From contig JAHBWH010000041.1 of the NCBI GenBank assembly GCA_019637115.1, forward strand, positions 1-51,679: a DNA stretch of 51,679 nt, in the 5' to 3' direction. The DNA comes from Myxococcales bacterium. Its GTDB lineage: Bacteria; Myxococcota_A; Polyangia; Polyangiales; Houyiibacteriaceae. The notes below the pieces were generated by a model. That model had not been told where the DNA came from and ran no database searches. It worked only from the letters and a program-made list of their open reading frames with translations. Shown here piece after piece: positions 12,405 to 42,055 of this stretch. Position 1 is the stretch's first letter. Each line of letters starts with the position of its first letter. The translations under genes and the position numbers were made by a program.

Positions 12405-13010
12405 ATGACCGACCTGGCCACGAGCTCCCCTGCCCCGATCCCCGCGTCCACGTTGGACTTCGTGCTCGACGTGCAGTTCGCCGTCGCGTGGGCGGGCGAG
12501 GGGCTGAAGTCGGAGAAGCGGCAGGGCTGGTGGGCGTCGATGTTCGCGTTCGAGTTCGGCGGGGAGGCGCTCTTCGCCGACCTGCTGCCGAACACGCACC
12601 GCTGGGCCGTGCTGCGCGCGGCGCGGGAAGCGGCGCGGCGAAAGGACGCGGAGCTGCGCGCGAAGGCGGACGATCCGGACCGGCTGGTGTCGCTCTTTCG
12701 GCTGGGCTTCGCGCTCGACGAGGCGCTCGAGGAGCGTCTCGCCGACCGGGTGCACGACGACCCGCGGCGCGAGCACACGTCGCGCGCCCTGGCGGCGCTG
12801 ATCGACGCCGACTTCTCCCCCACGTCGTTCACGCGCTTCCTCGAAGGGTTGCTCGCGACGGTCGAGACAGAGGTCGACTTCACGCCGAGCCCGAGCGGGC
12901 GGCGCGTGGTCGGTGAGCCGCCAAAGGACGCGCGCCTGCTGGTGGCGAAGCTCGCGGGCGCCTTGCTGCCACTGGCGGACGCCTACCCCCTCCCCCATTT
13001 CAAGCGGTGA
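12405..13010 (+). CDS. brxE: BREX-6 protein BrxE
   Basis: This 201-aa protein opens the operon and lacks known catalytic motifs. The features seen are VDFVLDVQ-like and AVAWAGEG near residue 25, [13 protein letters not shown] near 43-55, and Arg/Ala-rich helices. Its position directly before brxA and the content of the whole locus match the type 6 BREX arrangement, whose defining small protein is BrxE. Its molecular role is unknown. Its stop overlaps the GTG start of brxA (GTGA). The only upstream sequence is the hexamer repeat, with no clear Shine-Dalgarno sequence. Confidence 0.82.
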
Positions 13011-13842
13011 CCGTGGTGCTCGAGACCCTCGAGGGACGCCCTCCCGTGCGCCCCTCCGAACAGCGCGAGCCGCACACGCGGCTGCTCAAATGCGCGCTCG
13101 AGATCGAGGAGTGCCGGGCCTATTGGTCGCGGCGCGTCGACGACGAAGCACCTACTGCGGAGCGCGCGTTCGAGGAGTTCTGGTTCGGCTCGCGCAGCCT
13201 CGCGCGGGTGCAGGTGCTCCTCTCGAACCTGAAGCTCCGCTTCGACACCTACCCCGACGCGCTCCGGGCCCTGCACCGCTGGTCGACGAGCCCCTCGCGC
13301 ATGTCGCCCGACACGCGCCGCACGATCTGCCACTGGCACCTCCAGCTCGCCGATCCGCTCTACCGCGAGTTCACCGGCCTCTTCCTGCCGGAGCGGCTCG
13401 CCTCGCCGCGCCCCGAAGTCACGCGCGACGTCGTGGTGCGCTTCGTGGCCGAGAGCGACGTCGACGGCCGGTGGACGCACGCGAGCCACGTCCAGTTCGC
13501 GAGCAAGCTGCTTTCCGCCGCCTACTCGGCCGGGCTGCTGCAGCGCACGCGCGATCCCCGACCGATCGTGGTGCCGCGCGTGCCCGACGACGCGCTCGAG
13601 TATTTCGTGCAGCTCCTCCGCCAGCTCGACTTCGCCGGCACCGTCACGCACAACCTCTACTTCGCCTCCGTCGGCCTCGCGGGCGGGCTGCTCGAAGAGC
13701 GCCTCCGCGCGCTCACGAACGTGGGCTTCGAGCGCCAGGGCAGCCTGATGTACCTCGACTACCGCTTCCCGACGGTGAGCGCGTGGGCGGACGCGCGCTT
13801 TCCCCGCGGCGAGGCGGCCGACGACCCGGCGGTCCTTCACCC

Positions 13843-13846
<4 letters not shown>
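13007..13846 (+). CDS. brxA: BREX protein BrxA (DUF1819)
   Basis: This is a core BREX component and a small helical DNA-binding protein in characterised systems. Its 279 aa show DUF1819-type features: LLKCALEIEECRAYW near 20-35, ICHWHLQLADPLYREF near 105-120, and the C-terminal NLYFASVGL segment. The GTG at 13007 overlaps the brxE stop by 4 bp. Two more GTG codons follow within 10 bp, so the exact start is uncertain by a few residues. It overlaps brxB by 4 bp, which indicates tight translational coupling. Confidence 0.88.
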
Positions 13847-14478
<632 letters not shown>

Positions 14479-14603: not shown

Positions 14604-14698
14604 CCCCAGCCCGCCGCCACACCGCCCGACCCCGTTCCCCAAGTCAGCTCACCCTCGACGCGGCTCCGATGCTCGAGAGACACGAGAGGCATCTCGCG

Positions 14699-18310
<3,612 letters not shown>

Positions 18311-18351: not shown

Positions 18352-18453
18352 ATGAAAAAGGATCTTCTCGAGGTCGCGCGGTACGGGGACCGGCTCTGGC
18401 CGCGAAGCGGGAGCCACGCCACCGGGGACGAACGAGGACGGAACCGACGATGA
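18352..18453 (+). CDS. Possible 33-aa leader ORF before pglX
   Basis: A short frame starts ATGAAAAAG, encodes a charged peptide (MKKDLLEVARYGDRLW near its start) and ends in a TGA that overlaps the pglX ATG (ATGA). The first codons are unusually A-rich for this region. There is no homology that I recognise. It may be a translationally coupled leader of pglX or chance. Confidence 0.22.
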   Translation: MKKDLLEVARYGDRLWPRSGSHATGDERGRNRR

Positions 18454-21400
18454 GCATGACGGGTGAGGCGAAGTCGCGGCTGGCGGCGGCGATTCGGGGG
18501 TTGCGGACGTACCTGGTCGGGGATCCGAAGGAGGCCGGGCTGGACGCGGCGCGGGGGGCGCTCGACGAGGCGCTGGAGGGGACGTACCGGCTCTCGCTCG
18601 ACGAGGAGAAGGCGGGGCTCGACGAGGCGGCGCGGCGACGGCGGGCGCGGCTCGTGGCCTGGCTGGAGGAGCAGGGCCGCGCGGACGAGACGGGCGGCAA
18701 AGCGAAGGCGTCGTCGAAGGGCACGAAGCTCGGCCGCGCGGAGGTCGCGCGGCACCTGCACGCGGCGGCGACGCAGGCGGCGTACACGCTCGTGCACCGG
18801 CTCGTCGTGCTGCGGCGGCTCGAGGCGCTGAAGCTGCGGCCGATCGCGGTGGTGACGGGCGGCTTCGAGAGCCGCGGCTACCGCGACTTCCGCGAGCTCG
18901 GCCCGCAGATCCGCGGCGGCGCGAGCGGCGCGTCGAGCGGGCCCTTCTCGGACGGGCTCGGGCGCGGGCTCTCCGGCACTGGCGGGCGCGACGAGACGGA
19001 GGGCTACGCGTTCTTGCTCGACCTCGTCTTCGCGGATCTCGCGACCGAGCTGCCGGGCGTGTTCGGGCCCGCGGGCGTCGCGGAGCTGGTGCCGGTGCCG
19101 GCCGCGGCGCTGCGGCGGGTGGTGGAGACGCTCGACGACCCGGCGCTGCAGAGCGCGTGGACGGACGACCTGGTGCTCGGCTGGGTCTACCAATATTGGA
19201 ACGACCCCGCGCGCGAGGCGCTCGACGACAAGCTCAACCGCGGCGGCAAGGTCGAAGGGCACGAGCTCGCGAGCAAGACGCAGCTCTTCACCGAGCGCTA
19301 CATGGTGGACTGGCTGCTGCAGAACAGCCTCGGCCCCAGGTGGCTCGCGATCTGCGCGCGGCACGGGTGGACCGCGGACCTGAACGCCGTCGGCCCGGAC
19401 GGCGCGTCGACGCTGCAGCGGCTCGAGGCGCGGCGCGCGGAGTTTCGGGAGCGGCGCGAGCGCGGCGAGGTCTCGCTCACCGAGCTCATGCCGCTGCACA
19501 CCGAGCTCGAGCGGCGCTGGGCCTACTACGTGCCGCAGCCGATCCCGGAGGATGCCGTTTCGAAAGCGCCGTCCTCGGTGCGCACGCTGAAGATCCTCGA
19601 TCCCGCGGTGGGCTCGGGGCACTTCCTCGTGGTCGCGCTCGAGCTATTGGTTGCGCTCTACGAAGAAGAAGCGCGGCATCGGGGGCTCTCGCTCGCGGCC
19701 TTCGTGCGGGGTGACGCGGCGTCGAAGGGCGCGGCGAGCGACACGGTCGGTGACTCCGACGACGACGGCAAGCGCCTCGCGGTGGAGCGCATCCTCTCCG
19801 AGAACCTGCACGGCATCGACCTCGACCCGCGCGCGATCCAGATCGCGGCCGCGACCTTGTGGATTCAAGGCAAGGCGCTCGCGCCGAAGGCCACGCCGCC
19901 ACGCCTGAACCTCGTGGCCAGCGACCTGCGCCTCGGCGCGTTGCGCCACGACGACCCCGCGCTCGTGGAGCTGCGCGCGGGGGTGGAGCGCGAGACGGGC
20001 ATGCCAGCGTCGCTCACCGACGCGGTGGTCGGCGCGCTCAAGGGCGCGGATCACCTCGGCAGCCTCTTGAAGATCGATCGCGCGGTGGAGGAGGCGCTCG
20101 ACGCGCACGAGCGCGCGCTCGGGCTCGGCGTGAAGTTCGCGCCCACGCAGACCTCGCTCTTCGGCGAGAGCACGCCCCAACAAGGGCAGATGGTCTTCGA
20201 CCGCGAGGAAGCGCGCGCCTCGCTGACGGAGCGGCTGGAGACGTTTCTCGCGCGCCACACCCGCGCGGACGACCTCGGCCTCCGCCTCCGCGGGGAGCAG
20301 CTCGCGGCGGGCGTGCGCCTCGCGCGGATGCTGGGGGAAGGGCAGTACGACCTGGTGGTGGCGAACCCGCCCTATCAGGGGACCGCGAAGATGGCGGACG
20401 CGAAGTACGTGGCCGCTCGGTATCCGCTGGGGAAGGCGGATTTGTACGCGGCGTTTCTGCTGCGCGGGCTGGAGCTGGTGCGGGAAGGTGGGGTCAGCGC
20501 GATGCTGACCATGCGGAACTGGATGTTCATCAAGCAGTACGCGGGGCTGCGGGAACATCTGCTTTCGACATTTGATCTTCGCGCGCTGTCCGACCTCGGC
20601 ACTGGAGCGTTTAGCAGTCGGTCGATGGACGACGTGATCTCTTCTGCGATGGTGATCTTTCGAGCCACGAGGCCGGAGGGTAGAACGGTCGCGCTTCAGA
20701 CCGGGCCGCTCGCGGATCCCCGCCGGGACGCGGAGAAGCCGCTGCGCCGCCGGACCGCATTGGAACATCAGGAAGGACGGTACGAGTTCGACCCCGCGGC
20801 GGTGAAGGTCGTACCGGAGTGGCCGCTGGTGTACTGGTGGGGAACCGACTTCATCGAGCTATTCACCCGGCATAGACCATTCGGCGTACTCGCCCCTGCG
20901 AACAAAGGCATTTGCACGGGAGACGACACGAGAACTCTGCGGAGAGCATGGGAGGTCTTCGTGCGTCGCAGGTGGCAACCAACGATTCATGGGGCCAAGG
21001 GAATCGCGTGGTTTGAGCCATGTCAACTTGCCATTGACTGGTCCGCCGGCGGTCTGCTATTTGGTGTAATGGAAGAGTCCGGGCGAGGCACGCGATTCCA
21101 GGGCAAGCAGTTCTACTTTCGTTCCGGCGTATCTTTCTCGATGATCGGGTCGAGGTTCGTAGCCAGAATCCACAGATTTCGCAGTGTCTTCGGCGACAAG
21201 GGATCATCCATTTTTCCATCTGATACCCGAGCTGCAGTCTGCGCCATGAACCGAAGCCTTTCGCGAGAAATACTGAACTCACTGAATCCGTCTATTAGCT
21301 TTCAAGTGGGTGACGTAAACCGTCTTCCCTGCCTATCCGTCGATGGCTCGCCGGTTATCGCGCGCCTTCTCGATAACGCCTTCACCCTTCACGAATCCCA

Positions 21401-23339
21401 CCGCGAACCCTCCGTCGAGTTCCGCACGCCCGGCCCCTCTCCCTGGCGCCACGCCCAAGCGTGGGCCCAGACCGCGGTCGACCGCCCCGAAGGCGCGCCG
21501 CTGCCGGAGTACGTCGAAGAGCTCGATCCGGAGCCGGCCAGCGATCACGTGAGCTTCGCGCTCGGGGTCGCGCTCGGGCGTTTTGGTGCGAACGGGGAAG
21601 GGATCGTGGATCCGAAGACGGGGCGGCCGGTGCCGGTGCCCACGCCGACCTTCTTGGGGGAGACGGACGTGGCGGCGGGGGCTGCGGCTCGAGCGGGTGC
21701 GACTCGGACGGGGAAGGCGGATCGCGCGACGGGAACGGACACGGAGACAGAGGCAGAGACCGAGTCCGCGCTTCGCGCGACGGGCACGGGCATGGGCACG
21801 GGCACGGGCACGGGCACGTCGACCGCCGCGAGCGCAGCCGCGGACGCCGACGGGCCGGACCTGCTCGTGCACGCGTTGCCGCACGGGCTGCTCTTCCTCG
21901 ATCGCACGCTCGACGACGCGGACCTGCGCGACGGGCTCGGGCATCCGGCGGCGAAGGGGCTGCACGAGGCGTGGGCGACGTACGGGCCTTCGCACGCTTC
22001 GCAGTGGACGACGCGGAGCTCGCTGCGCGACTTCCTCGCTTTGGACTTCTTCAAGGACGTCCACAAGGGGATGTACGAGAACCGGCCGATTCATTGGCCG
22101 ATCTCTTCCGAGAAGAAGACCTTCGTGACGTGGGTGAACATTCACCGGATGGACGCGCGGACCTTGAAGGTGCTGCTCGCGGATCACCTGCTGCCGCGGC
22201 TCACGCAGATCGAGGGCGAGCTGGCGGACCTGCGCGCCGCGCGGGACGGCGCGGATCGCAAAGCCGCGAAGACGGCGGAGAAGCAGCTTGGCAAGCTGCT
22301 GGCGGCCAAGGACGAGCTGGAGACGTTCGTGGCGGACGTGGCGCAATGCGCGGAGCGCGGCCCGTTGCCCATCGATCCGAAATGCCCGCCGCGCGAACGC
22401 GACGCGCCCTACGCTCCCGACCTCGACGACGGCGTGATGATCAACTCCGCCGCGCTCTGGAAGCTGCTCGAGCCGCAGTGGAAAGACCCGAAGAAGTGGT
22501 GGAAGGAGCTCGCGAGCGCAGCGCCCGCGCCGGAGGACCCGAAGAGCAAGGCGACGCTCGCGGCTGACCCCGCGAGCACATGGGTGGAGGGGGGCCCCGT
22601 CCGGGCTTTGCCCGGTGGGGGGAGGGGCGCCGGAACGCCCCTCCGAGCAGGAAAGGGCAAGGACTACGACTGGTCCCACCTCGCGATGCGCTACTTCCCC
22701 ACGCGCGTCGACGAGAAGTGCCGCCGCGATCCGAGCCTCGGCGTCGCCCACGGCTGCTTCTGGCGCTACCACCCCGAGCGCGCGTGGGCGTGGGAGCTGC
22801 GCCTGCAAGACGAGATCGGCACCGCGGAAGACGGGGGGCCCTTCCGGATTCGCGAGGCGCCGTACCGCCCGGGCGGACGTGACCTCGGTGACGGCGACCT
22901 CGGCGACTCGGGCGACGAAGCCCTCCGCGCCACCTTCCTCCGCGATCACCCCGAGCTCGCGATCGCCGCGCTCGAGAAAGAAGCGATCCGCCGCATGGGC
23001 CGCGGCGCCAAACGCAAACGCGTCGACACCTTCGAGCTCCACGAGCCCGGCCTGTGGAGCACGCACGCGGCGACCCTCTACGAGCTCGAGCTCAGCCTCA
23101 GCGAACGCCAAGGCCACCCGCTCACCATCCACGCCCCCGACGAGCCCGAAGCCCGCGCCGCCTACGAGCAGGCCCACCCCGAGGCCGTCTCGGACCGCAA
23201 GCACCGCCTGGCGGCCCTGAAGCCGCTGGAGCTGCTGGGGGACGGGGACGACGACGACGGTCCCGACGACGACGGTCCCGACGACGACGGTCCCGACGAC
23301 GACGGTCCCGACGACGACGGTCCCGACGACGGCGACTGA
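18450..23339 (+). CDS. pglX: BREX adenine-specific DNA methyltransferase PglX
   Basis: This methyltransferase marks host DNA at the BREX motif (N6-adenine). Of 1629 aa, methyltransferase motif I is D384-PAVGSGHF and motif IV is N639-P-P-Y642. The stretch coding about residues 705-1000 (20,560-21,450) is much less GC-rich, with codons rare elsewhere. It overlaps the expected target-recognition region, so it may have been exchanged. Downstream are low-complexity Thr-Gly repeats (21,780-21,820), a palindromic in-frame segment (22,601-22,644) and a C-terminal DDDGP tandem repeat. The gene ends 1 bp from the convergent NTase gene, and pglZ lies 4.1 kb further on. Confidence 0.93.
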   Translation: MSMTGEAKSRLAAAIRGLRTYLVGDPKEAGLDAARGALDEALEGTYRLSLDEEKAGLDEAARRRRARLVAWLEEQGRADETGGKAKASSKGTKLGRAEVARHLHAAATQAAYTLVHRLVVLRRLEALKLRPIAVVTGGFESRGYRDFRELGPQIRGGASGASSGPFSDGLGRGLSGTGGRDETEGYAFLLDLVFADLATELPGVFGPAGVAELVPVPAAALRRVVETLDDPALQSAWTDDLVLGWVYQYWNDPAREALDDKLNRGGKVEGHELASKTQLFTERYMVDWLLQNSLGPRWLAICARHGWTADLNAVGPDGASTLQRLEARRAEFRERRERGEVSLTELMPLHTELERRWAYYVPQPIPEDAVSKAPSSVRTLKILDPAVGSGHFLVVALELLVALYEEEARHRGLSLAAFVRGDAASKGAASDTVGDSDDDGKRLAVERILSENLHGIDLDPRAIQIAAATLWIQGKALAPKATPPRLNLVASDLRLGALRHDDPALVELRAGVERETGMPASLTDAVVGALKGADHLGSLLKIDRAVEEALDAHERALGLGVKFAPTQTSLFGESTPQQGQMVFDREEARASLTERLETFLARHTRADDLGLRLRGEQLAAGVRLARMLGEGQYDLVVANPPYQGTAKMADAKYVAARYPLGKADLYAAFLLRGLELVREGGVSAMLTMRNWMFIKQYAGLREHLLSTFDLRALSDLGTGAFSSRSMDDVISSAMVIFRATRPEGRTVALQTGPLADPRRDAEKPLRRRTALEHQEGRYEFDPAAVKVVPEWPLVYWWGTDFIELFTRHRPFGVLAPANKGICTGDDTRTLRRAWEVFVRRRWQPTIHGAKGIAWFEPCQLAIDWSAGGLLFGVMEESGRGTRFQGKQFYFRSGVSFSMIGSRFVARIHRFRSVFGDKGSSIFPSDTRAAVCAMNRSLSREILNSLNPSISFQVGDVNRLPCLSVDGSPVIARLLDNAFTLHESHREPSVEFRTPGPSPWRHAQAWAQTAVDRPEGAPLPEYVEELDPEPASDHVSFALGVALGRFGANGEGIVDPKTGRPVPVPTPTFLGETDVAAGAAARAGATRTGKADRATGTDTETEAETESALRATGTGMGTGTGTGTSTAASAAADADGPDLLVHALPHGLLFLDRTLDDADLRDGLGHPAAKGLHEAWATYGPSHASQWTTRSSLRDFLALDFFKDVHKGMYENRPIHWPISSEKKTFVTWVNIHRMDARTLKVLLADHLLPRLTQIEGELADLRAARDGADRKAAKTAEKQLGKLLAAKDELETFVADVAQCAERGPLPIDPKCPPRERDAPYAPDLDDGVMINSAALWKLLEPQWKDPKKWWKELASAAPAPEDPKSKATLAADPASTWVEGGPVRALPGGGRGAGTPLRAGKGKDYDWSHLAMRYFPTRVDEKCRRDPSLGVAHGCFWRYHPERAWAWELRLQDEIGTAEDGGPFRIREAPYRPGGRDLGDGDLGDSGDEALRATFLRDHPELAIAALEKEAIRRMGRGAKRKRVDTFELHEPGLWSTHAATLYELELSLSERQGHPLTIHAPDEPEARAAYEQAHPEAVSDRKHRLAALKPLELLGDGDDDDGPDDDGPDDDGPDDDGPDDDGPDDGD
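22601..22644. repeat. REP-like double hairpin inside pglX
   Basis: Two perfect hairpins lie next to each other in the reading frame. CCGGGC-TTT-GCCCGG spans 22601-22615, and the second has a 9-bp stem, GGAGGGGCG (22621-22629) with CGCCCCTCC (22636-22644). They encode a Gly/Pro/Arg-rich linker unlike the sequence around it. This looks like a palindromic repeat unit captured in the gene; no second copy was noticed here. Confidence 0.5.
23250..23324 (+). repeat. Five 15-bp units coding DDDGP at the PglX C-terminus
   Basis: Five exact copies of GACGACGACGGTCCC encode Asp-Asp-Asp-Gly-Pro repeats that form an acidic tail ending in DDGD. The unit is in frame, so copy number can change without a frameshift. 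Confidence 0.9.
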
Positions 23340-27485: not shown

Positions 27486-30400
27486 ATGGAGTTGCAGGAG
27501 CAGGCCGCGACGGACGCGACGAAGAGCGCGCTCGGGCCGGTGTCGGAGGCGCTGCTGCGGGAGCTGCGGGAGTACACGCGCAAGCACGGCGTGGTGCTTT
27601 GGCTCGACGGCGCGAACCACTTCGGCGGCTTTGTCGACCGGCTGCTCGCGACGCGGCCACGCGAAGGCGAAGGGGGCGCGGAGGCCCGTGGTGACGGACG
27701 CGCGCATGGCTTCTCGGTCCGCGCCTTTCGCGGGAGCTACCTCGAGCTGATGCTCGCGCTCGACGGTGTGGCGGGTGGGGCGGCGAAGGTGCCGCTGCTG
27801 GTGCACCTGCCGGGGCTCGACGAAGAGTCCGTGAAGCTCACGCCGATCTACGAGCTCTACGCGGCGGGCACGCGGTTTCGGAAGGCGCTGCCGACGCTGA
27901 TCACCGAGGCGGCGGCCGGGCTGGTGAAGCCTGAGCGCATCTCCGCGGTCGCGAGCACGGCGTCCCTCGCGGAGGCGGACGCTTGGCTCGCGCGGGCGCT
28001 GCAGTCGTCCGAGGACGACGACGGCCGCGAGCTCCGCACGCAGCTCGACGCGCTGGGGCCCAAGGGCGTCATGGACGACCTGATCGGCGAGGGCTTCTTG
28101 ACGCCGCGCCTCGTCGAGCCCGAGGTCCGGAGCGCGATCGCGGAGCGGATGGCGACCTGGCTCGGGGTCGGCGACGCGTGGCGGGAGCTCTCGGTCGTCG
28201 GAGAAGTCGCGGGCGCGCGCCAGCACGCCGAGCACCTGGCCTTCGTCTTCGCGAGCTTCGCGATGGCGGTCGAGTACGTCGACGACCTGAGGCGTCCCCC
28301 GGTGCAGGAGCTGCTGGCGCCGCTCGCGAGGCTCCCGAAGCCACTGAAGGAGACGGGGCGCGAGCTGGCCAAGCACCTGCGCAAGCGCCACGACGCCTTC
28401 TACGAGCGCATCGCGAATGAGACGGAGGCGCTGATCCCGGAGGAGAAGCTCCGCGCGAAGGCGGAGGACCTGGGAGACGTCGACACCTTCCGCTTCGAGG
28501 AGGAGGTGCTGCTGCGCGCGGCGCTGGCGGCGCTCGACGGGGAAGACTTCGCGCGGGCGGCCGAGTGGGCGGAGCTTCGGCTCGGCGCGCGGGCCAAGAA
28601 GGCGGCGGGCAAGGCGGGCAAGGCGGGCAAGGCGGGCAAGGCGGCCCAGGCGGAGACGAAGCGCCGGAGCTCGACCTATTGGTTGCGCAAGAGCCCCGAG
28701 CGGCGCTCAGCGTGGCAGCTCGTGCTCGACGCGGCGCGGGTCGGGCTCGCGGCGCAGGCGGCGGGCGAGCTGCGCGCGAAGACCCTCGCCGACGCGCTCG
28801 CGGCCTACCGCACGCGCGGCGCCGCGGTGGACCAGGCGCACCGCCACCTGGAGCAGAGCCGGGTCGCCCTGCTCTTCCCGCTCTTGCCCGAGTACGAGTC
28901 GCTGCGCGCGCAGCTCGATCGGGCGCGCGCGGTGTGGCTGCGCTTCGCCGACGCCTGGGCCGCGTCGTTCAACGCGCTCTGCGAGGCCGAGGGCTTCCTG
29001 CCGCCGCCCGCCCTCCAGCAGCGCGCGCTCTTCGACGAGGTCGTGCGCCCGATGACGAAGGACGGCCTGACCGCGTACTTCGTGGTCGACGGGCTGCGCT
29101 TCGAGATGGGCGAGGAGCTCTTCCGCATGCTCGACGGGTCGGTCGCGGCGACGAGCGTGCGCCTCGACGCGCGGCTCGCGGAGCTGCCGACGGTGACGGA
29201 GGTGGGCATGAACGTGCTCGCGCCGGTCGCCGACGGTGGGCGGCTGCGGCCCTCACTCACGGCGGAGGACCGCGGGAAGGTTGTCGGCTTCTCGACCGGC
29301 GAGCTCGTGGTCGGGACGCCGGAGACGCGGCGGCGCACGATGCACGAGCGCGTCGGCGGTGGGCAGTGTCCGTGGCTCGAGCTCGACGAGGTGGTGAGCC
29401 GCGACGTCACCTCGCTTCGGCGGTCGGTGGCGCAGGCGAAGCTCGTGGTGGTGCACGCGATCGAGATCGACAAGGCCGGGGAGAGCGGCATCGGTCCTTC
29501 GGTCTTCGCGAGCAGCCTCGGGAAGCTGAAGGCGGCGTGGCGCTTGCTGCACGACGCCGGGGTGCGACGCTTCGTGTTCACCGCCGACCACGGCTTCCTC
29601 CTCCACGACGGAGTGCCGATCGCGGACGGCGGCACGATCGCGGTGCAGTCGCAGGGACGAAAGATCGACCCCCAACGCCGCCACGTCTTCACCTCGGCCG
29701 CGACCGACCACGAGGGCGAGGTGCGGGTCCCGCTCTCGGCCCTCGGCTACGAGGAGACGGGCGCGCACGTGCGCTTCCCGCGGACGACGGCGGTCTTCGA
29801 TCGCGGCGACCGGTCGAAGAGCAACTACGTCCACGGCGGCAACAGCCTGCAGGAGCGGGTCATCCCGGTGCTCACGGTGGTCCATCGCGCGGCCGCGGGC
29901 GCGACCACGCTCCGCTACGTGGTGCGCGGGTCGCGCGGGGAGCCCTTGGCCGGCCTGCAGTGCGTGCGCGCGGTGGTCGAGGTCGCCGCGCAGCGGAGCC
30001 TCGAGTTCGAAGGCGCGGCCGAGCTGGAGCTCGCCCTGCGCGCGACCGACGACGCGGTGCAGGCCGAGCTGGTGGACGTGCGCGGCGGGGGGCGGCGCAC
30101 CGACGCGGGCACGGTGCTCGCGCGGGTGGGACAGGAGCTCGAGATCTTCTTCCGGCTCGCGACGAGCCAGGCGGTGGAACGCGCGCAGATCGAGCTCTCG
30201 CACCCGAGCAAGATGGCGGACGTCGAGCCCGCGACCTTGGCGGAGTACTTCGAGGTGATGCCGCGGACCAAGGCCAAAAAGGGCGAGGTCGACGTCGACG
30301 TCGAGCATGATGCTGACGCTCGAACCGCCTCGACTCCGCCCGGGTCGGGGGCGTGGCTCGACGCCTTGCCGGAGGTGGCGCGGGGGGTCTTCTCGCACCT

Positions 30401-30566
30401 CGCTCAGCACGGCGCGATCACCGAGGAGGAGATCGTGCGCAAGCTCGGCAGCACGCGCGCGGCGCGACGCTTCGCGCTGCAGTTCGAGGTCTACGCGCAG
30501 CGCGTGCCCTTCGGGACGCGCATCGACTTCGTCGGCAACCTCAAGCGATACGTGAAGGTCTCATGA
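27486..30566 (+). CDS. pglZ: BREX protein PglZ (alkaline phosphatase-fold)
   Basis: This is a core BREX protein of the alkaline phosphatase superfamily, 1026 aa. The PglZ domain shows FVVDGLRFEMGEEL near 530 and VFTADHGFLLHD near 697, the usual metal-site segments. A Lys/Ala/Gly repeat (AGKAGKAGK) lies near 377. The last ~68 residues form a predicted winged helix (HLAQHGAITEEEIVRKLGS) that resembles the C-terminus of the large helicase ORF ending at 35631. brxD overlaps by 4 bp. The 134 bp before the ATG hold no gene but contain two GACTTTCG direct repeats (around 27,416 and 27,440). Confidence 0.93.
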   Translation: MELQEQAATDATKSALGPVSEALLRELREYTRKHGVVLWLDGANHFGGFVDRLLATRPREGEGGAEARGDGRAHGFSVRAFRGSYLELMLALDGVAGGAAKVPLLVHLPGLDEESVKLTPIYELYAAGTRFRKALPTLITEAAAGLVKPERISAVASTASLAEADAWLARALQSSEDDDGRELRTQLDALGPKGVMDDLIGEGFLTPRLVEPEVRSAIAERMATWLGVGDAWRELSVVGEVAGARQHAEHLAFVFASFAMAVEYVDDLRRPPVQELLAPLARLPKPLKETGRELAKHLRKRHDAFYERIANETEALIPEEKLRAKAEDLGDVDTFRFEEEVLLRAALAALDGEDFARAAEWAELRLGARAKKAAGKAGKAGKAGKAAQAETKRRSSTYWLRKSPERRSAWQLVLDAARVGLAAQAAGELRAKTLADALAAYRTRGAAVDQAHRHLEQSRVALLFPLLPEYESLRAQLDRARAVWLRFADAWAASFNALCEAEGFLPPPALQQRALFDEVVRPMTKDGLTAYFVVDGLRFEMGEELFRMLDGSVAATSVRLDARLAELPTVTEVGMNVLAPVADGGRLRPSLTAEDRGKVVGFSTGELVVGTPETRRRTMHERVGGGQCPWLELDEVVSRDVTSLRRSVAQAKLVVVHAIEIDKAGESGIGPSVFASSLGKLKAAWRLLHDAGVRRFVFTADHGFLLHDGVPIADGGTIAVQSQGRKIDPQRRHVFTSAATDHEGEVRVPLSALGYEETGAHVRFPRTTAVFDRGDRSKSNYVHGGNSLQERVIPVLTVVHRAAAGATTLRYVVRGSRGEPLAGLQCVRAVVEVAAQRSLEFEGAAELELALRATDDAVQAELVDVRGGGRRTDAGTVLARVGQELEIFFRLATSQAVERAQIELSHPSKMADVEPATLAEYFEVMPRTKAKKGEVDVDVEHDADARTASTPPGSGAWLDALPEVARGVFSHLAQHGAITEEEIVRKLGSTRAARRFALQFEVYAQRVPFGTRIDFVGNLKRYVKVS

Positions 30567-31869
30567 GCAATCCCGTCGAGCACGTCTTCGAGTCGCTGCG
30601 AAAGGGCCTCGTGCCCGAGCGCGGCATCGACACCTTCGCGGTCGGGGTGGACCGCCCGCGGGGAGAGCTCCACCGCCAGCTCGAGCTCGCGGCGAAGGGC
30701 GAAGGCACGATCAAATTCCTCCGCGGCGGCTACGGCTGCGGCAAGACCTTCATGGCGCGCCTCGCGATCTTGGACGCGCAGCAGAAGGGCTTCGCGACGA
30801 GCTTCGTAGTCGTCTCCGACAACGACCTGAAGTTCCACCGCTTCGACGAGCTCTACGGCAAGGTGATGGCGGAGCTGAGCACCGCCGTGTGTCCGCGCGG
30901 CGCCCTCGGCGACATCCTCGACCGCTGGATCGCGCGCATCGAGGACGCGCTGATCGAGGCGGGCGTGGACGAGGACGCGCCGGACTTCTCCGCGCGAGTG
31001 CGTAAGCGGCTCGACGAGGACCTCGCGTCGCTGACCGGCGGCAAGGCGCCGCAGGACTTCGTGCGGGTGATCCAGACCATCTTCGACCTCAAGGAGAAGG
31101 GCGAGATCGCGGAGGCCGGCGCGCTCATCTCGTGGCTGGCGGGCAGCGGCAACGTCTCGGCGAGCGCGAAGAAGGCGGCGAGCATCAAGGGCGACATCGA
31201 GAGCCGCGACGCGCTCGAGTACCTCCGTGGGGTGCTGGAGATCGTGAAGGCCGCCGGCTACGCGGGGCTCCTGATCGTGATCGACGAGGCGGAGACGATC
31301 CTGCGGACGCGCTCGGACTCGCGGCACAAATCGCTCAACGGGATCCGGCAGATCGCGGACGCCTCTGGCTCGTACCCCGGCCTCTTCTGGCTCTTCACGG
31401 GCACCCCGGAGTTCTTCGACTCGCGCCAAGGGGTCGCCGGTCTGACCGCGCTCCACGACCGGATCCGTTTCCTCAAGCAGGGCAAGTTCGCGAGCCCGCG
31501 GCAAGCACAGCTCGAGCTGGAGCCCTTCGACGCGGAGCGCCTGCGCGGCGTCGCGTTGCGGCTACGCGACCTCTACCCGGCGAAGGATCGGGACCGGCTC
31601 GAGCGGCTCGTCAGCACCGCGTTCATCGACCGCCTGGTGGCGGAGGTGACGAAGGGCTTCAAGGGCGACGTGGGCGTGGTGCCGCGGCAGTTCCTTCGCG
31701 AGTTCGTGAACGTGCTCGACAGCACGGACGACTTTGACGACTACGACCCCAACACCGAGTACGCGTTCACGCCCGAGCCGCTGAACGCCGAAGAGCAGCA
31801 TCGCCTGCACGGCGGTCAGGTCGAGGTGCCGGACGACGACGACGGCCCGGTGCCCGTCGAGGACGTGTG

Positions 31870-31873
<4 letters not shown>
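30563..31873 (+). CDS. brxD: BREX ATP-binding protein BrxD
   Basis: The 436-aa P-loop ATPase belongs to the BrxD (DUF2791-type) family. Walker A is GGYGCGKTFMA near 54-64, Walker B-like LLIVIDEAE lies near 236, and a sensor-like FWLFTGTPEFF near 275. In types 2 and 6 BREX, BrxD accompanies BrxHI and replaces the BrxL effector. Start and stop codons overlap both neighbours (ATGA with pglZ, GTGA with brxHI), so the three are co-translated. A role as motor or loader for BrxHI is inferred. Confidence 0.9.
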
Positions 31874-34671
<2,798 letters not shown>

Positions 34672-34684
34672 CCCTGGGGTGCCG

Positions 34685-35596
34685 ATGACCGTTCCGACCT
34701 ACGCCGAGATGATCGAGCCCTTGCTGCGTGTCCTTCACGAGCGTGGCCCATTGCGCGCGAGCGAAGCACGCCTGGCGGTCGCCGACCGCATGGGACTCAC
34801 GGAGCAGCAGCGTTCCGAGCTGCTGCCGAGCGGGGCGCACGCCCGCTACGCGCACCGTGTCGGCTGGGCGCAGGACAGCACGAAGCGACACGGTCTCACC
34901 ACCTCGGAGAGCTGGGGTACGTGGCAGCTCACCAAGGCGGGCCGAGAGCTGCTGGAGAAACATCCGCAGGGCCTCCCGGCGGAGGAGGTGCAGCGCATCG
35001 CCACGCAGAAGCGCAACCTCTCGATCGCGGAGATCTTGAGCGGTGAGCCTGAAGGCCCCCACCCGATCCCTCCCATCAGCAGCGAGAGTCCGGAAGAACG
35101 GCTCGAGGCGGCGCTACAAGAGATTCGCGCCACCGTCGCGCGCGAGCTGCTCGAGCGCATCCTTGCGGCACCTCCAGAGTACTTCGAGGGCCTCGTGCTC
35201 GAGCTCCTTCACGCGCTCGGCTACGGAACCTCGCGCAGCGATCTACAGCGCGTGGGCAAGAGCGGCGACGCGGGCATCGACGGAGTGATCGCGTTGGACC
35301 GGCTCGGACTGGAGAAGGTCTACGTCCAGGCCAAGCGGTGGCAAAGCAACGTCGGACGCCCTGAGTTGCAGGCCTTCTTTGGGGCCCTCGCGGGACAACG
35401 CGCGCGCAAGGGCGTGTTCATCACGACCGGCGGCTACACGCGCGAGGCGCTCGAGTTCGTTGCCACCGTGCAGGACTCGATCGTCGTCGTCGATGGGGCA
35501 CGCCTGACCGAGCTGATGATCGACTACGCGGTCGGCGTCGGGCATCGCGTCGTGAAGCTACCCCACGTCGACACGGACTTCTTCGAGCCCGCATGA
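34685..35596 (+). CDS. Mrr-type restriction endonuclease
   Basis: This is a probable type IV (modification-dependent) restriction enzyme, 303 aa. An N-terminal winged-helix Mrr_N-like domain (about 1-90, with WQLTKAGRELL) precedes the PD-(D/E)XK domain: FEGLVLELLHALGYG, GDAGIDGVI (Asp near 199) and VYVQAKRW (Q-x-K near 215-217). ATG 34685 lies 13 bp after brxHI, so it may be read through from the BREX operon. Such enzymes cut DNA with foreign methylation and would complement a system that marks host DNA. It converges with the large helicase gene. Confidence 0.87.
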   Translation: MTVPTYAEMIEPLLRVLHERGPLRASEARLAVADRMGLTEQQRSELLPSGAHARYAHRVGWAQDSTKRHGLTTSESWGTWQLTKAGRELLEKHPQGLPAEEVQRIATQKRNLSIAEILSGEPEGPHPIPPISSESPEERLEAALQEIRATVARELLERILAAPPEYFEGLVLELLHALGYGTSRSDLQRVGKSGDAGIDGVIALDRLGLEKVYVQAKRWQSNVGRPELQAFFGALAGQRARKGVFITTGGYTREALEFVATVQDSIVVVDGARLTELMIDYAVGVGHRVVKLPHVDTDFFEPA

Positions 35597-35630: not shown

Positions 35631-37745
35631 TCATCGCTTCGCCCGGTAGACCTTCACCCCGCTGGCTGTGCTCACCTCGATCACGAAGGGCAGTGTCCAC
35701 TTCTCGATGGTGACCGCGAAGCTCCTCGCGCGGCGCGGGCTGCCGAGCATGTTGACGAGCTCGGTCTCGCTGATGGAGCCGTGCAACTCCAGGTGCAGAA
35801 GCGCCTTGCGGTAGAGCGGGTCGTCGATCGCTGCGGCCCACGCAGGCACGTTCGGCGACGACGCCTCCGTGGTGACCGCAGCCAAGACCGGTTGCGACTT
35901 GCGCACCGGACGCCCTCGCGGCGGCTCGCTCTTCGGGGGCGGTTCGACCTTCGCGGGCGCGCGCAACGCCGCGAGGTGCTCGCGGTAGACCGGGGCTTGC
36001 ACCGCGCCCCGCACGCCGGGGACGAGCGCCTCGATGGCTTGGAGGATCTCGGCGGGTCGACGACGCCACGCCGCCGCCGTCACGGGCAGCACCTTCCACC
36101 CTCGGTCGCCGAGCACGTTCGCGCGATGCACGTGGCGCTCGAAGGGCGTGATGGGCTCGAGGCCCTCGTCGAGGAGCAGCCCGAGCACGAAGCGGTTCGG
36201 GTCCTTCGGATCGAGGATCGCGATCGGGACGCGGAAGCCCGACGCGCCGACGTCGAGCTCGTGCGGGATGCCCGCCGCCTCGAGCGCCAGCGCGACCTGC
36301 GCGCGCAGCGGCACGAAGCCCTCGACCGGGAGACGCGCGTGGGGGCGCAGCTCGCCGAGCTTGCCCGCAGACTCACGCACCAGCGAGAGCACGCGGTCGG
36401 CCTGCGCGCGCCTGCCTGCGGAACGATGGCGCGAGAACTCCAGGAACTGCTTGAAGAGGTAGGGCCCTGGGTTCTTCGCGGAGCCGATGCTCAAGAGGTC
36501 GGGGTCGAAGGAAGAGACCACGTAGCACTCGTGCTTGGCGCGCGAGATGGCGACGTTGAGGCGACGTTCGCCGCCCTTCTGCCCGAGCGGACCGAAGCGC
36601 GCCGGCACGTACTTCTCGCCCGAGACCTGACCCTTGCGACGCCGCTCCTGCGGGGCGTGACCGAGCGAGAAGAGGATCACGTCGCGCTCGTCACCCTGCA
36701 CGTTCTCGAGGTTCTTCACGAAGGGACGATCGTCGAGGTTCTCGACCCCCGTCGCGTCGTCCCAGAGGCGACCGAACGCGGTGTCCTTGGCGCGTCGACG
36801 CTCGATGGCGTCGAGGATGGTCTTGCGCTGCTTGAGGTTGAACGTGATCACGCCGAGGGTCGGCGCGTCCGGACGCGCGAGGAGCTCGTGGACCTGGTCC
36901 ACGACGCGCTCCGCCTCGGGCAGGTTCACGCCCGCGTCGTACGAGCCGTTCGGCACGTGGATCCACTTGAGCGCGCTCGGTGCGGCGGGGCCGGAGGTCG
37001 CCGGGATCGTCTGCAGATCGCCGCCGTACATCGCGTGGTTCGAGAACGCGATCAGCGCCTCGTCGCGGCAGCGGTAATGCCACTTCAAGCCAGCATGCGC
37101 GACCCGTGAGCGCGCGAGGGTGAGCAGCGACTCGGACGAGAGAAGATCGCGAATCGCCTCGGCCTCGGCCTCGACCTCGACACCGCCCTCGTCCTCGTCG
37201 TCGGTGCCTCCGCCGAGCGCGAAGTACGACGTCGGTGGCATCTGCTTCTCGTCGCCGGCGATGACCACCCGCTTGCCACGGAAGAGCGCGGGCAAGCCCG
37301 ACTCGACGGTGCACTGCGAGGCCTCGTCGATGACCACGAGATCGAAGAGCGCCTCGCGAGGGAAGAGCACCGCCATGGTCTCGGGCGAGAGGAGCCACAC
37401 CGGGACCGCGTCGAGCAGGCCGCGCGGCGCGAACCTGCGGACGAAGGTGCGGAGCGGCAGTAGGCGCCGCTTCTTCCGCGACTCCTTGAGCATCTCCTCG
37501 CGCGCCTTCTGCTCCTCGCTCTTGCGCTCGTAGCGGGCCGCCACGGGCAGCGCCTCGGCGCGTCGCACGTCGACCGACGCGACGATGCGCTCCGCCTGGA
37601 TGTCGCTGAGCTCGCTCTCGAGCTCGGCCAGGCGCTTGCCTTGCCGCTGCGTCTCGCGTTCCTCCGCTGGCGTACCGAGCTGCGCCAGCTCTGGTGTTCG
37701 CGCTTCGAGCGCGGCGAGCCAGGTCTCAGCCCAGGCACGAACCAC
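35631..37745 (-). CDS. C-terminal half of a split SF1 helicase, with Vsr-like and winged-helix domains
   Basis: The 704-aa frame carries the second RecA-like half of an SF1 (Upf1/AAA_11-AAA_12-like) helicase: VVIDEASQ near 136 (motif II), GDEKQMPP near 168 (motif III), NVQGDERD near 348 (motif V) and NVAISRAKHE near 400 (motif VI). Residues about 465-555 resemble Vsr/DUF559-like nucleases, but the usual RID is RVP and the IECDG segment is LLLDEG, so it is probably inactive. The last 65 residues resemble the PglZ C-terminus. GTG 37745 lies 4 bp after the stop of the other half. It has no Walker A and so cannot be a complete helicase alone. Confidence 0.82.
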   Translation of the reverse strand: MVRAWAETWLAALEARTPELAQLGTPAEERETQRQGKRLAELESELSDIQAERIVASVDVRRAEALPVAARYERKSEEQKAREEMLKESRKKRRLLPLRTFVRRFAPRGLLDAVPVWLLSPETMAVLFPREALFDLVVIDEASQCTVESGLPALFRGKRVVIAGDEKQMPPTSYFALGGGTDDEDEGGVEVEAEAEAIRDLLSSESLLTLARSRVAHAGLKWHYRCRDEALIAFSNHAMYGGDLQTIPATSGPAAPSALKWIHVPNGSYDAGVNLPEAERVVDQVHELLARPDAPTLGVITFNLKQRKTILDAIERRRAKDTAFGRLWDDATGVENLDDRPFVKNLENVQGDERDVILFSLGHAPQERRRKGQVSGEKYVPARFGPLGQKGGERRLNVAISRAKHECYVVSSFDPDLLSIGSAKNPGPYLFKQFLEFSRHRSAGRRAQADRVLSLVRESAGKLGELRPHARLPVEGFVPLRAQVALALEAAGIPHELDVGASGFRVPIAILDPKDPNRFVLGLLLDEGLEPITPFERHVHRANVLGDRGWKVLPVTAAAWRRRPAEILQAIEALVPGVRGAVQAPVYREHLAALRAPAKVEPPPKSEPPRGRPVRKSQPVLAAVTTEASSPNVPAWAAAIDDPLYRKALLHLELHGSISETELVNMLGSPRRARSFAVTIEKWTLPFVIEVSTASGVKVYRAKR

Positions 37746-37749
37746 CGCC

Positions 37750-40700
37750 TCACCAACCGTGGACCGGCGCCTCGGGCAGCGCGCGATGCAGCGCTCCGAG
37801 CAGCTCCAACGCTCCCGGAAGCAGACGCTGCGCGCGCTCGATCAAGCCGTCCGACTCGACCACACGCTCGCCTTCCTTGCGCAGCCCGCCGAGGAGCGCG
37901 GCGAGCGACGCGGCGGAGGGCGTCTCGCCGAGAGAGGTGAAGACCTGCGCCACTGGGACGGCCGCGGCCACGAGCGCGTCGTGTGCGTCGAGGTACGCGA
38001 GTCGTTCGTCGACGCGCGCGTCCCACTGCGCGACCGAGCTCGCGCTCCACTCCGTCGACCACGCGCCGACCGCGGCGAGCGCCGGTGCGCCCGCCAAGAG
38101 CATGTGGGCCTCCTCGCCGACGGTGCCGAGGCGCTCGACGAAGCCTCCGATCGCTCGAGATTCGCGAGGCAGCCGACGTTCGAGACCGAGCCTCGAGGCC
38201 GCGTCCACGATGCTCTGCCACACACGGCTCGCCGCGAAGCGGGCTTCGAGGTCCGCCACCAGACCTGCGTCGACGGCGTCCGCGGCGCGCTCCGGCAACG
38301 CGCGACGCAGCCACGCCCGAACCTGGCCTCGCGCCTTCCACCACGCCCACACGAAGAAGCGCGCGAAGCTGCCCGACCAGCGCTTCACGACCGCGAGCGA
38401 CGCGACCACCTCGTTGTCGAAGGTGAGCGTGACCGGCTCCTCGAAGCGAAGCATCGCCTCGCTGCCCGAGCGCCATGCGCGAACCGCGTCGGCCGCGGGC
38501 GCGACGCGGTCTGGCTGGCCGAGCGAGAGCAGCGAGCTGAAGAGCTCGAGGTCGGCGGGCGCCTGGCGTGCGGCGCGGCTCGTGCGGGCGGCGTGCAGCG
38601 CGTCGCGCGACGCGAGCAGCGCAGCCGGCGCGACGGGCAGCCGCTCCGCGAGGTGCTCGAGGTTCATCGCGCAGCGAAGGGCGTGTTGTACCTGAGCCTC
38701 GAGCGCCTGCAGGCGCGTGCGGTCGTAGGTCGCGAGGCTCTGGCGAGGGACGCTCCACCTACTGCCGGCGATCCAGAGTTCACGCAGCGGATGAAGGGAG
38801 CCGACCACGTCGAGGAGGTCGCCGAGCTGGGCCTTCGAGACACGCGCGAGTGCGTCGGAGCGAAGCGCGGGCACCTCGAGCCCCGACGCGAGCGCGTGCA
38901 GTTGCCCGATCGTCAGGTCCACCCCATCCGGCTTCCACGCGAGCAACTGACCGCGGCGGGCGAGCGCGTCGCGAACGCTGCGATGCTCGCGCTCGAGACG
39001 CTCGGCCTCCTTGGCGTCGAAGGGGCGCATGTCCGCGGAGTCGAGCCGCTCGGCGATCTGGGCGTAGAGCTCCTTGCGGTCCTCATGTACGTCGTGGACG
39101 AGCGCGAAGTCCTGCCGCAGGCCCACCGATGTGAGGCGTTGCGCGACCACGTCGATCGCCGCGCGCTTCTCGCACACCACGGCCACTCGCTCTCCGCGCC
39201 GCAGCGCATCCGCCACGAGGTTGACGATGACTTGGCTCTTGCCGGTGCCGGGCGGTCCGTCGACGACGGTCGCGGGGTTCTTGCGGCAGGTCGAGAGCAC
39301 CTCGCGCTGCGAGGGATCCGCGAGGATGACGGGGTGATCTGCGTCCTCCGAGGCGCGCGCCGCGTCGCCGACACCGTCGGCGAGCACGTCGGGCAGGAGC
39401 GCGTGCGCCGCGCCGAGAAGCGCCGCGACCGGACGACCCGGATCCTCGAGATCCGTGATGAGCCCGTCGTAGTCCTGCAGAAGGTCGGAGCTCGACTGCG
39501 GGAAGAGGCCCAGCACGGCGAGCTCTTCGAGCTCGAGCCCCGGCGGTCGCTCCTCCAGCTCCGGTCGCTCACGGAACGCACGCAGCTCGGTCGATTGTCG
39601 GGCGAGCGTGAGCCCGACTTCCTTCAGGCGCTGGATCACCTTCTCGGGCCCGGTACCGGGCTCAGCCGCGAGCTCGTCGAGCTCGTCCCCGAGCTCGTCC
39701 CCGAACGCGAAGCCGCGCTTGTGAAAGACGAGTCGCAGCAGCGATTGGTTGACGATCGGGTCCTCGTCCTTGCGCGGCTTGAGCTTGAAGCCGCGTGCGC
39801 CGGCGCCGTCGCGCTCGATGTCGACGGGGTAGAGCACGAGCGGGCCGCGCACGAGGTAGTTGCTCGATCGCGCCGCGCCTTGCTGCGCGACGACGCCCGT
39901 CACGAAGGGGTAGCCGACGTAGAGGTCGTGCGCGCCCGTCTCCTCGGCGCGCGATCGGTACTCGCGATCGAGCGCGAGGAGCTGCTCGGCGCTCGTCTTC
40001 GCCGCCGCGTGTCGGCCGGCGTCGGTGGCCTCGAGGAGCTTCGCGGTCTGAAGCTCGCCCACCTGCGTGAGCACGCGCTCGGCCAGGCCCACGCTGGTGT
40101 TCTCGAGCGAGTGGAGATCGAAGGTCTGACCGGAGCGAAGGCGCCGCACGCGCACGGAGGGGCTTCGACCGTCGCCCGAGACGAGCTGATCGCGCAGCCG
40201 CGCCAGCGCACGCATCAGCCCGGCCCGCGAGCCGTCGGGGCGAAGGCTCGGGCGCGATGGAGTCGACGCCAACCCCTGCGACCGAAGCGCGAGCGGCTCG
40301 TCGAGCGTGACGTTCTGGAGGTCGGCCTCGCAGCGCACACCGTGACGTCGCATGGCGTCGTTCAGGAGCGCGAGCGCCGGGGGCGTCGCGTGATCCGCGC
40401 CTGCGAGCTTGAGGAGCCGGCGCAGGGTCACGCTCGCGTCGCCTCGTCGGGCGATGCCTCGGAAGAAGAGGTCGACGACCTCGCGCACCTCGGACGCGCG
40501 CGGCGGCAGCGGGAGAGGCAACGGCGCGACGTCGGGAAGGGATACGCCGTGCGTGCGGAGAGTGACGGCGAGGAGACCGAGCCACTCGTCCTCGCAACCG
40601 AAGTACGCGCCGATGCTGCGAATTGCGCCCAGCTCGCGCGCGTCGACCACGCCATCCGCGAACATGACGCGCGTCAGCAGCTGAAAGAGCGGGTGCAGCA

Positions 40701-41823
40701 GCTCACGCCCGAAGACCGCCACGACGGGCGCCGTCTCGTGGAAGCGATCTCTCGCGACGGCCTGGTCGAGGAGCTCTTGCCAGCGTGGCACGCTGGCGCC
40801 GAGCTCGCGCTGGATCAGGTCGGCCTCTTCGTCCGCCAGGTCTCCGTCGGCCCATGCCACCAGCACCGCGGCGGCGAGCGCGCACTCGACGAGCTCCTGC
40901 GGCCGCTCGTCAAAGGAAGGCGGCTCGATGCTCGGAAGCCGATCGCCGAAGCCTACGAAGCGCAAGATCAGGTCGTCGACCTCGCGAACGTCGTGCGTGC
41001 CCGGCCCCTTCCCCGTCAGCTGCCGGTAGAGAGCGGTCTCCGAGAAGAGCTGGATCGCGTAGCCGCGCAACGGCGACTCGGGATGTGTGACGCCCTGGAT
41101 GAGGTCGGGTCGTCGCAAGCTGCTCTCGACGAGCTCGCGGCATTGCGCGAGGTAGGCCTCGACGTCGTAGGTCAGCACGTCGCCCGCGTCGCTCGCCTCG
41201 AGGATCATGAACGCCCGAAGCGCCGCGCCGACGTCCTGACAGGCCAGGAGCGCAAAGCGATCGGCGGTGAACTCGCAGAAGTGCGAGAACGCGCGGAGCA
41301 GGAAGAGCAGCTCGTCGGAGACACCGTCGGGCGCATGGAGGAGCGCGGTCAGGACCTGTGCGTTGGGGTGCGGCGCGCGGGGGCCGTGCGCGAGGTAATG
41401 CCCAAGCTCGTGCCCCATCACACTGAGCAAGGCGCCGTCGTCGAGCAGCGGGAGCATCCGCCCGTGGAGCTCGAGCAGGATCGGCCGCTCGCAGCCGTGC
41501 ATGCCTGCGTTCTCGGGCCCGTTGCGCTGGAAGAGCTCGATCTCGCCTTCGACCCCGAGCGTCCGCCGGGCGTCCTCCGCGATGCTCGCGGCGCGTGGCG
41601 CCATCGCGGGCGAGAGCCGCACCGTCGACGCGAGGACGGCACGGCGGATGGCCACGTCGTCGCGGGGACCGAGAGAGAGCGGCCCGGCTACGCGCTCGAG
41701 ACGCTCCCCAAGCTCCCCCTCGTAGCGCACCCGTACCGCGTCGACGTCGAGCTGCCGAATCGGGGTGCGCGGCGGCAAGGGTCGCGCCGCCGCGCGAGGA
41801 GGAAGAACGATGGCTTCGGTCAT
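37750..41823 (-). CDS. N-terminal half: M48-like peptidase, TerB-like domain and SF1 helicase Walker A region
   Basis: The 1357-aa frame has three parts. First is an M48-type zinc peptidase with HELGH near 138-142 and the third-ligand segment EFTAD near 184. Second is a TerB-like helical domain (about 310-420) with LVAWADGDLADEE and MFADGVVDARE. Third is an SF1 helicase region with Walker A GPPGTGKSQ near 853, after a DUF4011-like lead-in. It ends at TGA 37750 before motif II, which lies in the next frame. ATG 41823 was chosen over ATG 41907 because the extra 28 residues look like untranslated leader. The gene is divergent from the acyl-CoA dehydrogenase operon, 232 bp away. Confidence 0.82.
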   Translation of the reverse strand: MTEAIVLPPRAAARPLPPRTPIRQLDVDAVRVRYEGELGERLERVAGPLSLGPRDDVAIRRAVLASTVRLSPAMAPRAASIAEDARRTLGVEGEIELFQRNGPENAGMHGCERPILLELHGRMLPLLDDGALLSVMGHELGHYLAHGPRAPHPNAQVLTALLHAPDGVSDELLFLLRAFSHFCEFTADRFALLACQDVGAALRAFMILEASDAGDVLTYDVEAYLAQCRELVESSLRRPDLIQGVTHPESPLRGYAIQLFSETALYRQLTGKGPGTHDVREVDDLILRFVGFGDRLPSIEPPSFDERPQELVECALAAAVLVAWADGDLADEEADLIQRELGASVPRWQELLDQAVARDRFHETAPVVAVFGRELLHPLFQLLTRVMFADGVVDARELGAIRSIGAYFGCEDEWLGLLAVTLRTHGVSLPDVAPLPLPLPPRASEVREVVDLFFRGIARRGDASVTLRRLLKLAGADHATPPALALLNDAMRRHGVRCEADLQNVTLDEPLALRSQGLASTPSRPSLRPDGSRAGLMRALARLRDQLVSGDGRSPSVRVRRLRSGQTFDLHSLENTSVGLAERVLTQVGELQTAKLLEATDAGRHAAAKTSAEQLLALDREYRSRAEETGAHDLYVGYPFVTGVVAQQGAARSSNYLVRGPLVLYPVDIERDGAGARGFKLKPRKDEDPIVNQSLLRLVFHKRGFAFGDELGDELDELAAEPGTGPEKVIQRLKEVGLTLARQSTELRAFRERPELEERPPGLELEELAVLGLFPQSSSDLLQDYDGLITDLEDPGRPVAALLGAAHALLPDVLADGVGDAARASEDADHPVILADPSQREVLSTCRKNPATVVDGPPGTGKSQVIVNLVADALRRGERVAVVCEKRAAIDVVAQRLTSVGLRQDFALVHDVHEDRKELYAQIAERLDSADMRPFDAKEAERLEREHRSVRDALARRGQLLAWKPDGVDLTIGQLHALASGLEVPALRSDALARVSKAQLGDLLDVVGSLHPLRELWIAGSRWSVPRQSLATYDRTRLQALEAQVQHALRCAMNLEHLAERLPVAPAALLASRDALHAARTSRAARQAPADLELFSSLLSLGQPDRVAPAADAVRAWRSGSEAMLRFEEPVTLTFDNEVVASLAVVKRWSGSFARFFVWAWWKARGQVRAWLRRALPERAADAVDAGLVADLEARFAASRVWQSIVDAASRLGLERRLPRESRAIGGFVERLGTVGEEAHMLLAGAPALAAVGAWSTEWSASSVAQWDARVDERLAYLDAHDALVAAAVPVAQVFTSLGETPSAASLAALLGGLRKEGERVVESDGLIERAQRLLPGALELLGALHRALPEAPVHGW

Positions 41824-42055
41824 GGGCAAGAGCCGGTTGAAGATGCTCGCAGCACCGCCGACCTGACGCGAGCCTACGCGAGCCCTCTCGCGTTGCGCAT
41901 CCCCCAAACCAGGTAGATTCCCGGGGTCGCACCCGCAGTGCGACGGCCGTAGGTCGATTCCTCCTTCGATTCAGGCGCCTTGACGCGCGCCAACCCCACG
42001 CGCCACCGCGCTCCTCATGCTGTGCGGTGCCCGTGGATCCGCCGAGGTGACGACC

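Follow-up and report, generated by a model that had tools for sequence, protein, structure and literature searches.

A giant M48 peptidase-helicase gene beside a type 6 BREX locus in a Myxococcales bacterium, a predicted accessory effector with a PglZ-type winged helix

We describe a giant gene on the minus strand (35631..41823) of a 51,679-nucleotide contig from the metagenome-assembled genome of a Myxococcales bacterium (JAHBWH010000041.1, assembly GCA_019637115.1), a stretch of DNA that we refer to in its entirety as the window. The gene lies next to a type 6 bacteriophage exclusion (BREX) locus, is interrupted by one frameshift and encodes, in order, an M48 peptidase, a TerB domain, a winged-helix-like unit, DUF4011, a superfamily 1 (SF1) helicase, a probably dead Vsr-like domain and a winged-helix tail. 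Judging by its sequence and its genomic surroundings, we predict, with roughly even confidence for and against, that the giant is an accessory effector of type 6 BREX and that its relatives elsewhere are self-contained defence proteins.

One tie to BREX is found in the protein itself. The last ~90 residues of the giant (35634..35903, minus strand) match the C-terminus of the BREX-6 protein PglZ, at positions 867-951 of NF033443 (E=1.5e-10), and also match PDLC02548 (E=1.1e-10); they were modelled as a winged helix with a predicted local distance difference test score (pLDDT) of 84. Among the open reading frames (ORFs) of the initially collected loci, our own profile of this tail recovered PglZ, tailed giants and one protein of 245 amino acids (aa), and nothing else. 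This small protein is encoded by locus L013 (5367-6104, plus strand) and its start overlaps the stop of the giant gene there, while the window leaves no room for a counterpart. Across 379 Myxococcota genomes the tail occurs at 39 places, 33 of which are PglZ or PglZ fragments, the remaining six being three giants, a ZorD-like SNF2 protein, a ZorE-like HNH protein and one unassigned fragment. Plasmids gave three further tail matches, two of them annotated as PglZ or phosphatase genes.

The two Zorya-like carriers are worth describing in their own right. The ZorD-like SNF2 helicase (E=3.5e-162; L185 7308-10694, minus strand; G232:C1:3566307-3569693) has the PglZ-type winged helix at its C-terminus and is part of a Zorya-like cluster, with ZorA- and ZorB-like genes upstream of it; it is located directly upstream of the BREX-6 genes brxB-brxC. 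The ZorE-like HNH protein (L186 2396-3205, plus strand; G360:C374), encoded behind ZorA- and ZorB-like genes, has the winged helix in place of its C-terminal half. Since the tail is found at the end of these two proteins as well as of the giants, the ZorD-like one being encoded in a BREX-6 locus, it looks like a shared adapter. We tentatively extend this idea, while leaning somewhat against it ourselves, to a plug-in adapter: the winged helix of BREX-6 PglZ may recruit unrelated effectors (the M48-TerB-helicase giant, the ZorD-like SNF2 protein, the ZorE-like HNH protein and the 245-aa partner) to BREX-6 or to the DNA that it recognises, and thereby may provide BREX with a proteolytic arm.

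A second line of evidence comes from gene order, and it makes the defence link firmer than mere adjacency, because the giant gene is operon-internal in one genome (Kofleriaceae G036, locus L017), comes directly after brxHI, in the same orientation, in another (L015) and has its tail in common with PglZ. In the first of these it is placed between brxC and pglX with a 4-bp overlap at each end, and in the second it begins ~80 bp after brxHI. The window and L013 have a further arrangement, in which the giant is convergent with an Mrr gene. Placement in or beside BREX-6 therefore recurs in three distinct arrangements and four genomes, all within the tailed clade. In a tree that was built without the tail, the tailed giants group together as a single clade (SH-aLRT 99). 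Four of the six adjoin BREX-6, compared with none of the 18 tailless giants counted (Fisher p=0.0014, or p=0.006 with the window and L013 counted as one lineage, neither value being corrected for shared ancestry). Other BREX-6 operons of the phylum host SIR2-HerA, an OLD-like ATPase, PDC-S27 and HEC-02A in such slots, which fits the concept of 'auxiliary effectors' proposed for BREX (PMC12839542).

The same data can be read differently. The giant might be a self-contained, single-gene defence, a cousin of Hhe and ProA, that shares islands with BREX and has acquired its tail as a DNA-binding domain by recombination with a neighbouring pglZ. Apart from genes for LmuB-like ATPases, which lie upstream of the giant in L019 and L014, no neighbour gene recurs widely beside the tailless giants; the helicase part matches the ProA, PDC-S37 and Hhe profiles; and an Azoarcus giant (L025) is found in a defence island together with a GmrSD-like gene and a BREX-2-like locus of the Pgl type. 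This reading does not anticipate the overlapping, operon-internal genes of G036, the same-strand position after brxHI in L015 or the more frequent BREX-6 linkage of the tailed clade, and we consider it unlikely.

Some details of the giants outside BREX-6 are given here for completeness. The tailless giant of Azoarcus indigens (L025; L193 506-16244) lies ~8-10 kb downstream of the Pgl-type locus (BREX-2-like by our reading) and the GmrSD-like gene, and upstream of a gene for a JetC-like structural maintenance of chromosomes (SMC) ATPase. In L014 (941-8930, plus strand) a tailed giant without BREX-6 comes after genes for a DrmD-like helicase and an LmuB-like/SMC-type ATPase of 1531 aa, the latter overlapping the start of the giant gene by 4 bp. 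The tailless giant of L019 likewise has an ATPase gene of this sort before it, to which a gene in L098 is homologous.

In the window the giant is divided between two leftward frames, one of 1385 aa from a TTG (37750-41907, minus strand; the likelier start is the ATG at 41823) and one of 704 aa (35631-37745, minus strand). The closest relative, L013 (Prado145), is 94-96% identical and has the giant gene as one uninterrupted frame. Compared with it, the window lacks two bases at about 37745-37755, which places the frameshift site at 37740..37760 on the minus strand. The ratio of non-synonymous to synonymous substitution rates (dN/dS) against L013 is 0.20 over the 180 codons that lead up to the break and 0.05 over the 200 that follow it; longer stretches on either side give 0.08-0.10, and the M48 domain 0.08. 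On the strength of the intact L013 frame, the two-base difference and the low dN/dS on both sides, we take the two frames to be one gene that was broken recently or by an assembly error. The window copy may be non-functional as a result, or the frameshift may itself be the assembly error. Two separate genes, or a programmed frameshift, are ruled out by the single-frame homologues, by the two-base difference from L013 and by the breaks at other positions in two further split copies (L100 and L110).

Some 25 homologues align across most of the length of the giant, which is far from chance. Intact homologues of ~1900-2100 aa were found in Myxococcota, in Azoarcus-like Betaproteobacteria and in Verrucomicrobiota, and the family is rare, with giants in 18 of the 379 Myxococcota genomes. 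A phage-borne or plasmid-borne family was also considered and rejected: the viral contigs scanned held no relative, and plasmids gave only one weak match to the helicase region of the giant.

The original prediction, which was made from the sequence alone, described two leftward frames with HELGH and EFTAD zinc-peptidase motifs, TerB-like repeats, helicase motif I in the first frame and motifs II-VI in the second, followed by Vsr-like and winged-helix domains. Most of this agrees with our results. Pfam identifies Peptidase_M48, DUF4011, AAA_11 with motif I and a weak TerB in the first frame, and AAA_11/AAA_12 with motifs II-VI and then MTES_1575 in the second. Two points needed correction, as there is a single TerB domain where repeats had been claimed, and the Vsr-like fold, which is present as is the winged helix, is probably catalytically dead.

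The Peptidase_M48 domain (PF01435; 41065..41535, minus strand) scores 27.1 bits against a cut-off of 20.3, and the giant has the features that characterize the M48 family, namely HExxH (HELGH, 41398-41412), a downstream ExxxD that holds the third ligand (EFTAD, 41260-41274) and the fold. Residues 60-560 of the first frame were modelled with AlphaFold2 (pLDDT 84, predicted template-modelling score 0.79), and the best nine matches of the model among solved structures are all TerB or M48 chains, among them 2ou3 (Z 9.7), 3c37 and BepA (Z 8.8) and ZMPSTE24 (Z 7.9). The last three are M48-type, hence the peptidase fold predicted for the HELGH region is upheld. With Foldseek this 501-residue, two-domain model gave no significant match, whereas VIA-align on the same model did. 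The TerB domain (PF05099 and the structure-model match; 40588..40878, minus strand) reaches 24.9 bits, with a cut-off of 24.4, in a separate scan of the N-terminal 501 residues and 20.3 bits in the whole frame, and Pfam matches TerB in 21 of 25 homologues. Between TerB and DUF4011 is a small helix-strand-helix-helix-strand unit (40279..40488, minus strand; model residues 415-484), which is winged-helix-like by secondary structure only.

The remaining domains are those of a nucleic-acid enzyme. DUF4011 (PF13195, 41.7 bits) is located at 39733..40032, followed by the first part of the SF1 helicase with motif I, GPPGTGKS (AAA_11; 39076..39315), and, beyond the break, by the second part with the DEASQ, GDEKQMPP, VQGDERD and NVAISRAK motifs (AAA_11/AAA_12; 36510..37652), all on the minus strand. 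In our alignment every giant retains intact helicase motifs I, II, III, V and VI. The Vsr-like restriction endonuclease (REase) fold (36030..36299, minus strand) scored 34.6 and 38.8 bits with MTES_1575 (PF18741) in two scans, the Pfam cut-off being 38.2. Detection of this fold might suggest a DNA-damaging effector in which the Vsr-like domain still cuts DNA. The alignment of giants speaks against this: in 25 of 26 giants a P replaces the catalytic D, and none of them has the catalytic E (P and L in the window copy), while strict MTES_1575 relatives from the same class keep both residues. We therefore reject an active Vsr nuclease, for lack of its catalytic residues, and regard DNA cutting by this domain as highly improbable.

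With the nuclease degenerate and the peptidase intact, proteolysis is the likeliest output predicted for the BREX-linked clade. In the mechanism that we envisage, the PglZ-type tail would dock the giant on whichever DNA feature or BREX sub-complex PglZ itself uses. The SF1 motor would then engage unmodified or stalled foreign DNA and travel along it, with the dead Vsr fold helping to bind the DNA. Motor, dead REase fold and winged helices are together the likely nucleic-acid sensor. Movement of the motor, transmitted through TerB and the inter-domain winged helix, might release the M48 peptidase, which would cut a phage or host protein and thus form a second layer after BREX and the neighbouring Mrr enzyme. 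A sensor-effector in which DNA recognition triggers proteolysis, or the reverse, had been proposed in the original prediction. The domain reading and the defence link stand. Triggering of proteolysis by DNA recognition is reasonable as a hypothesis: with the nuclease fold degenerate, no recognisable effector domain other than the peptidase remains, although the peptidase site has been lost in at least three lineages.

Several observations weigh against the accessory-effector role and its proteolytic output. The window copy is oriented convergently to the BREX genes and lies outside their operon. The assembled genomes of two of the six tailed giants (G144 and G145) contain no BREX-6 PglZ; the G145 assembly amounts to 3.0 Mb, and its giant lies at the end of a contig. 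The ZorE-like tail carrier of L186 is on a 4.2-kb contig without BREX genes. Finally, the M48 site is lost in L104 (QELGH), in L106-108 (HQLGH) and in L111, which amounts to at least three changes on the tree, and proteolysis is therefore not essential family-wide. These losses, along with the fact that the helicase motifs are the sole catalytic motifs kept in every giant, would suit a version in which the helicase or translocase is the whole effector, stripping or unwinding phage nucleic acid, and M48 is vestigial or has a regulatory role in self- or partner-processing. We think this quite improbable, given that the BREX-linked clade has kept its M48 motifs intact and under purifying selection. 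The motifs are intact in every tailed giant whose sequence covers them, and HExxH is intact in most homologues.

The idea of a peptidase-helicase giant is not in itself new, because giants with HEPN, a transglutaminase-like peptidase, an SF1 helicase, a Vsr REase and a winged helix-turn-helix (wHTH) were described by Anantharaman et al. 2013 (PMC3710099), who also proposed protein cleavage as a further line of defence. These MTES_1575-type giants, which are related to Hhe, resemble the present one in being a single giant protein with a peptidase before the SF1 helicase, a Vsr-like fold and a C-terminal wHTH. They differ in that the present giant has M48 and TerB instead of HEPN and the transglutaminase-like peptidase, lacks the nuclease residues and has a PglZ-like wHTH; a Pfam scan found no HEPN, transglutaminase or DUF3320 in it. 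The Hhe profile (NF042953) scores 75 and 285 bits on the two frames, covering the helicase and Vsr parts only, against a cut-off of 2000. The best profile matches across the DUF4011, helicase and Vsr regions are to ProA (NF058533) and PADLOC PDC-S37. ProA scores 134 and 395 bits on the two frames with a cut-off of 1500, and its N-terminal part, the first ~430 profile positions, is unmatched by the giant.

BREX type 6 itself is the neighbour or operon host of the giant and has the PglZ winged helix in common with it, but the giant is not among the BREX components described so far, and the main text of a 2026 survey of BREX does not mention M48, TerB, Vsr or DUF4011 (PMC12839542). The L185 and L186 proteins are likewise effectors of another defence system with a PglZ-type winged helix, with an SNF2 helicase or HNH nuclease where the giant has M48-TerB-SF1. 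Shango (TerB, helicase and ATPase) also ties TerB to a helicase in phage defence; however, it consists of three separate genes and an M48 peptidase has not been reported for it (PMC10250203). In the literature searched, mostly without subscription papers, we found no earlier description of an N-terminal M48-TerB pair, a dead nuclease, a PglZ-type tail and a position in a BREX-6 operon for such a giant, nor of such a giant in connection with ProA or with BREX and a metalloprotease. The earlier statement that no described system has this order holds to that extent.

The BREX locus of the window, whose adjacency had been predicted and whose type can now be specified as type 6, is encoded on the plus strand. 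It comprises brxE (12405..13010; PADLOC BrxE, E=6e-58), an ORF containing brxB, the true start of which is probably internal (12913..14478; PF08747), brxC (14669..18310; by position and homology, 52-61% identical to counterparts in other BREX-6 loci of the phylum), the methyltransferase gene pglX (18450..23339; PF07669), pglZ (27486..30566; NF033443, 1038 bits with a cut-off of 400), whose own C-terminal winged helix is at ~30321-30557, an ORF containing brxD (30353..31873; NF033438, 531 bits) and brxHI (31867..34671; PADLOC BrxHI). An Mrr-type IV REase gene (34679..35596, plus strand) follows, convergent with the giant. The gap between pglX and pglZ (23341-26863) hosts an AbiEii-like ORF, a MarR-like ORF and an ORF with a helix-turn-helix and M78 (RmrA-like), and is perhaps a toxin-antitoxin or accessory slot.

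Two further observations concern this genome. It encodes a stand-alone M48 peptidase of 324 aa (G000:C6; L012 9787-10761, minus strand) that is 30% identical to the M48 domain of the giant, and the two may have a common source. ARAGORN reports a tRNA-Gln(CTG) in the window at 46441-46536 (minus strand), which is unusually long at 96 bases, lies within coding-like sequence and may be spurious.

The way in which BREX blocks phages is still a matter of debate, and only recently was PglZ shown to be a nuclease (PMC12205998). If our reading is correct, a peptidase-helicase that is encoded in a BREX-6 operon and bears the terminal domain of PglZ would add a protein-cutting branch to BREX, and searching for the tail would be a concrete route to further BREX effectors. 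Its presence on Zorya effectors would mean that one targeting module has been exchanged between distinct defence systems.

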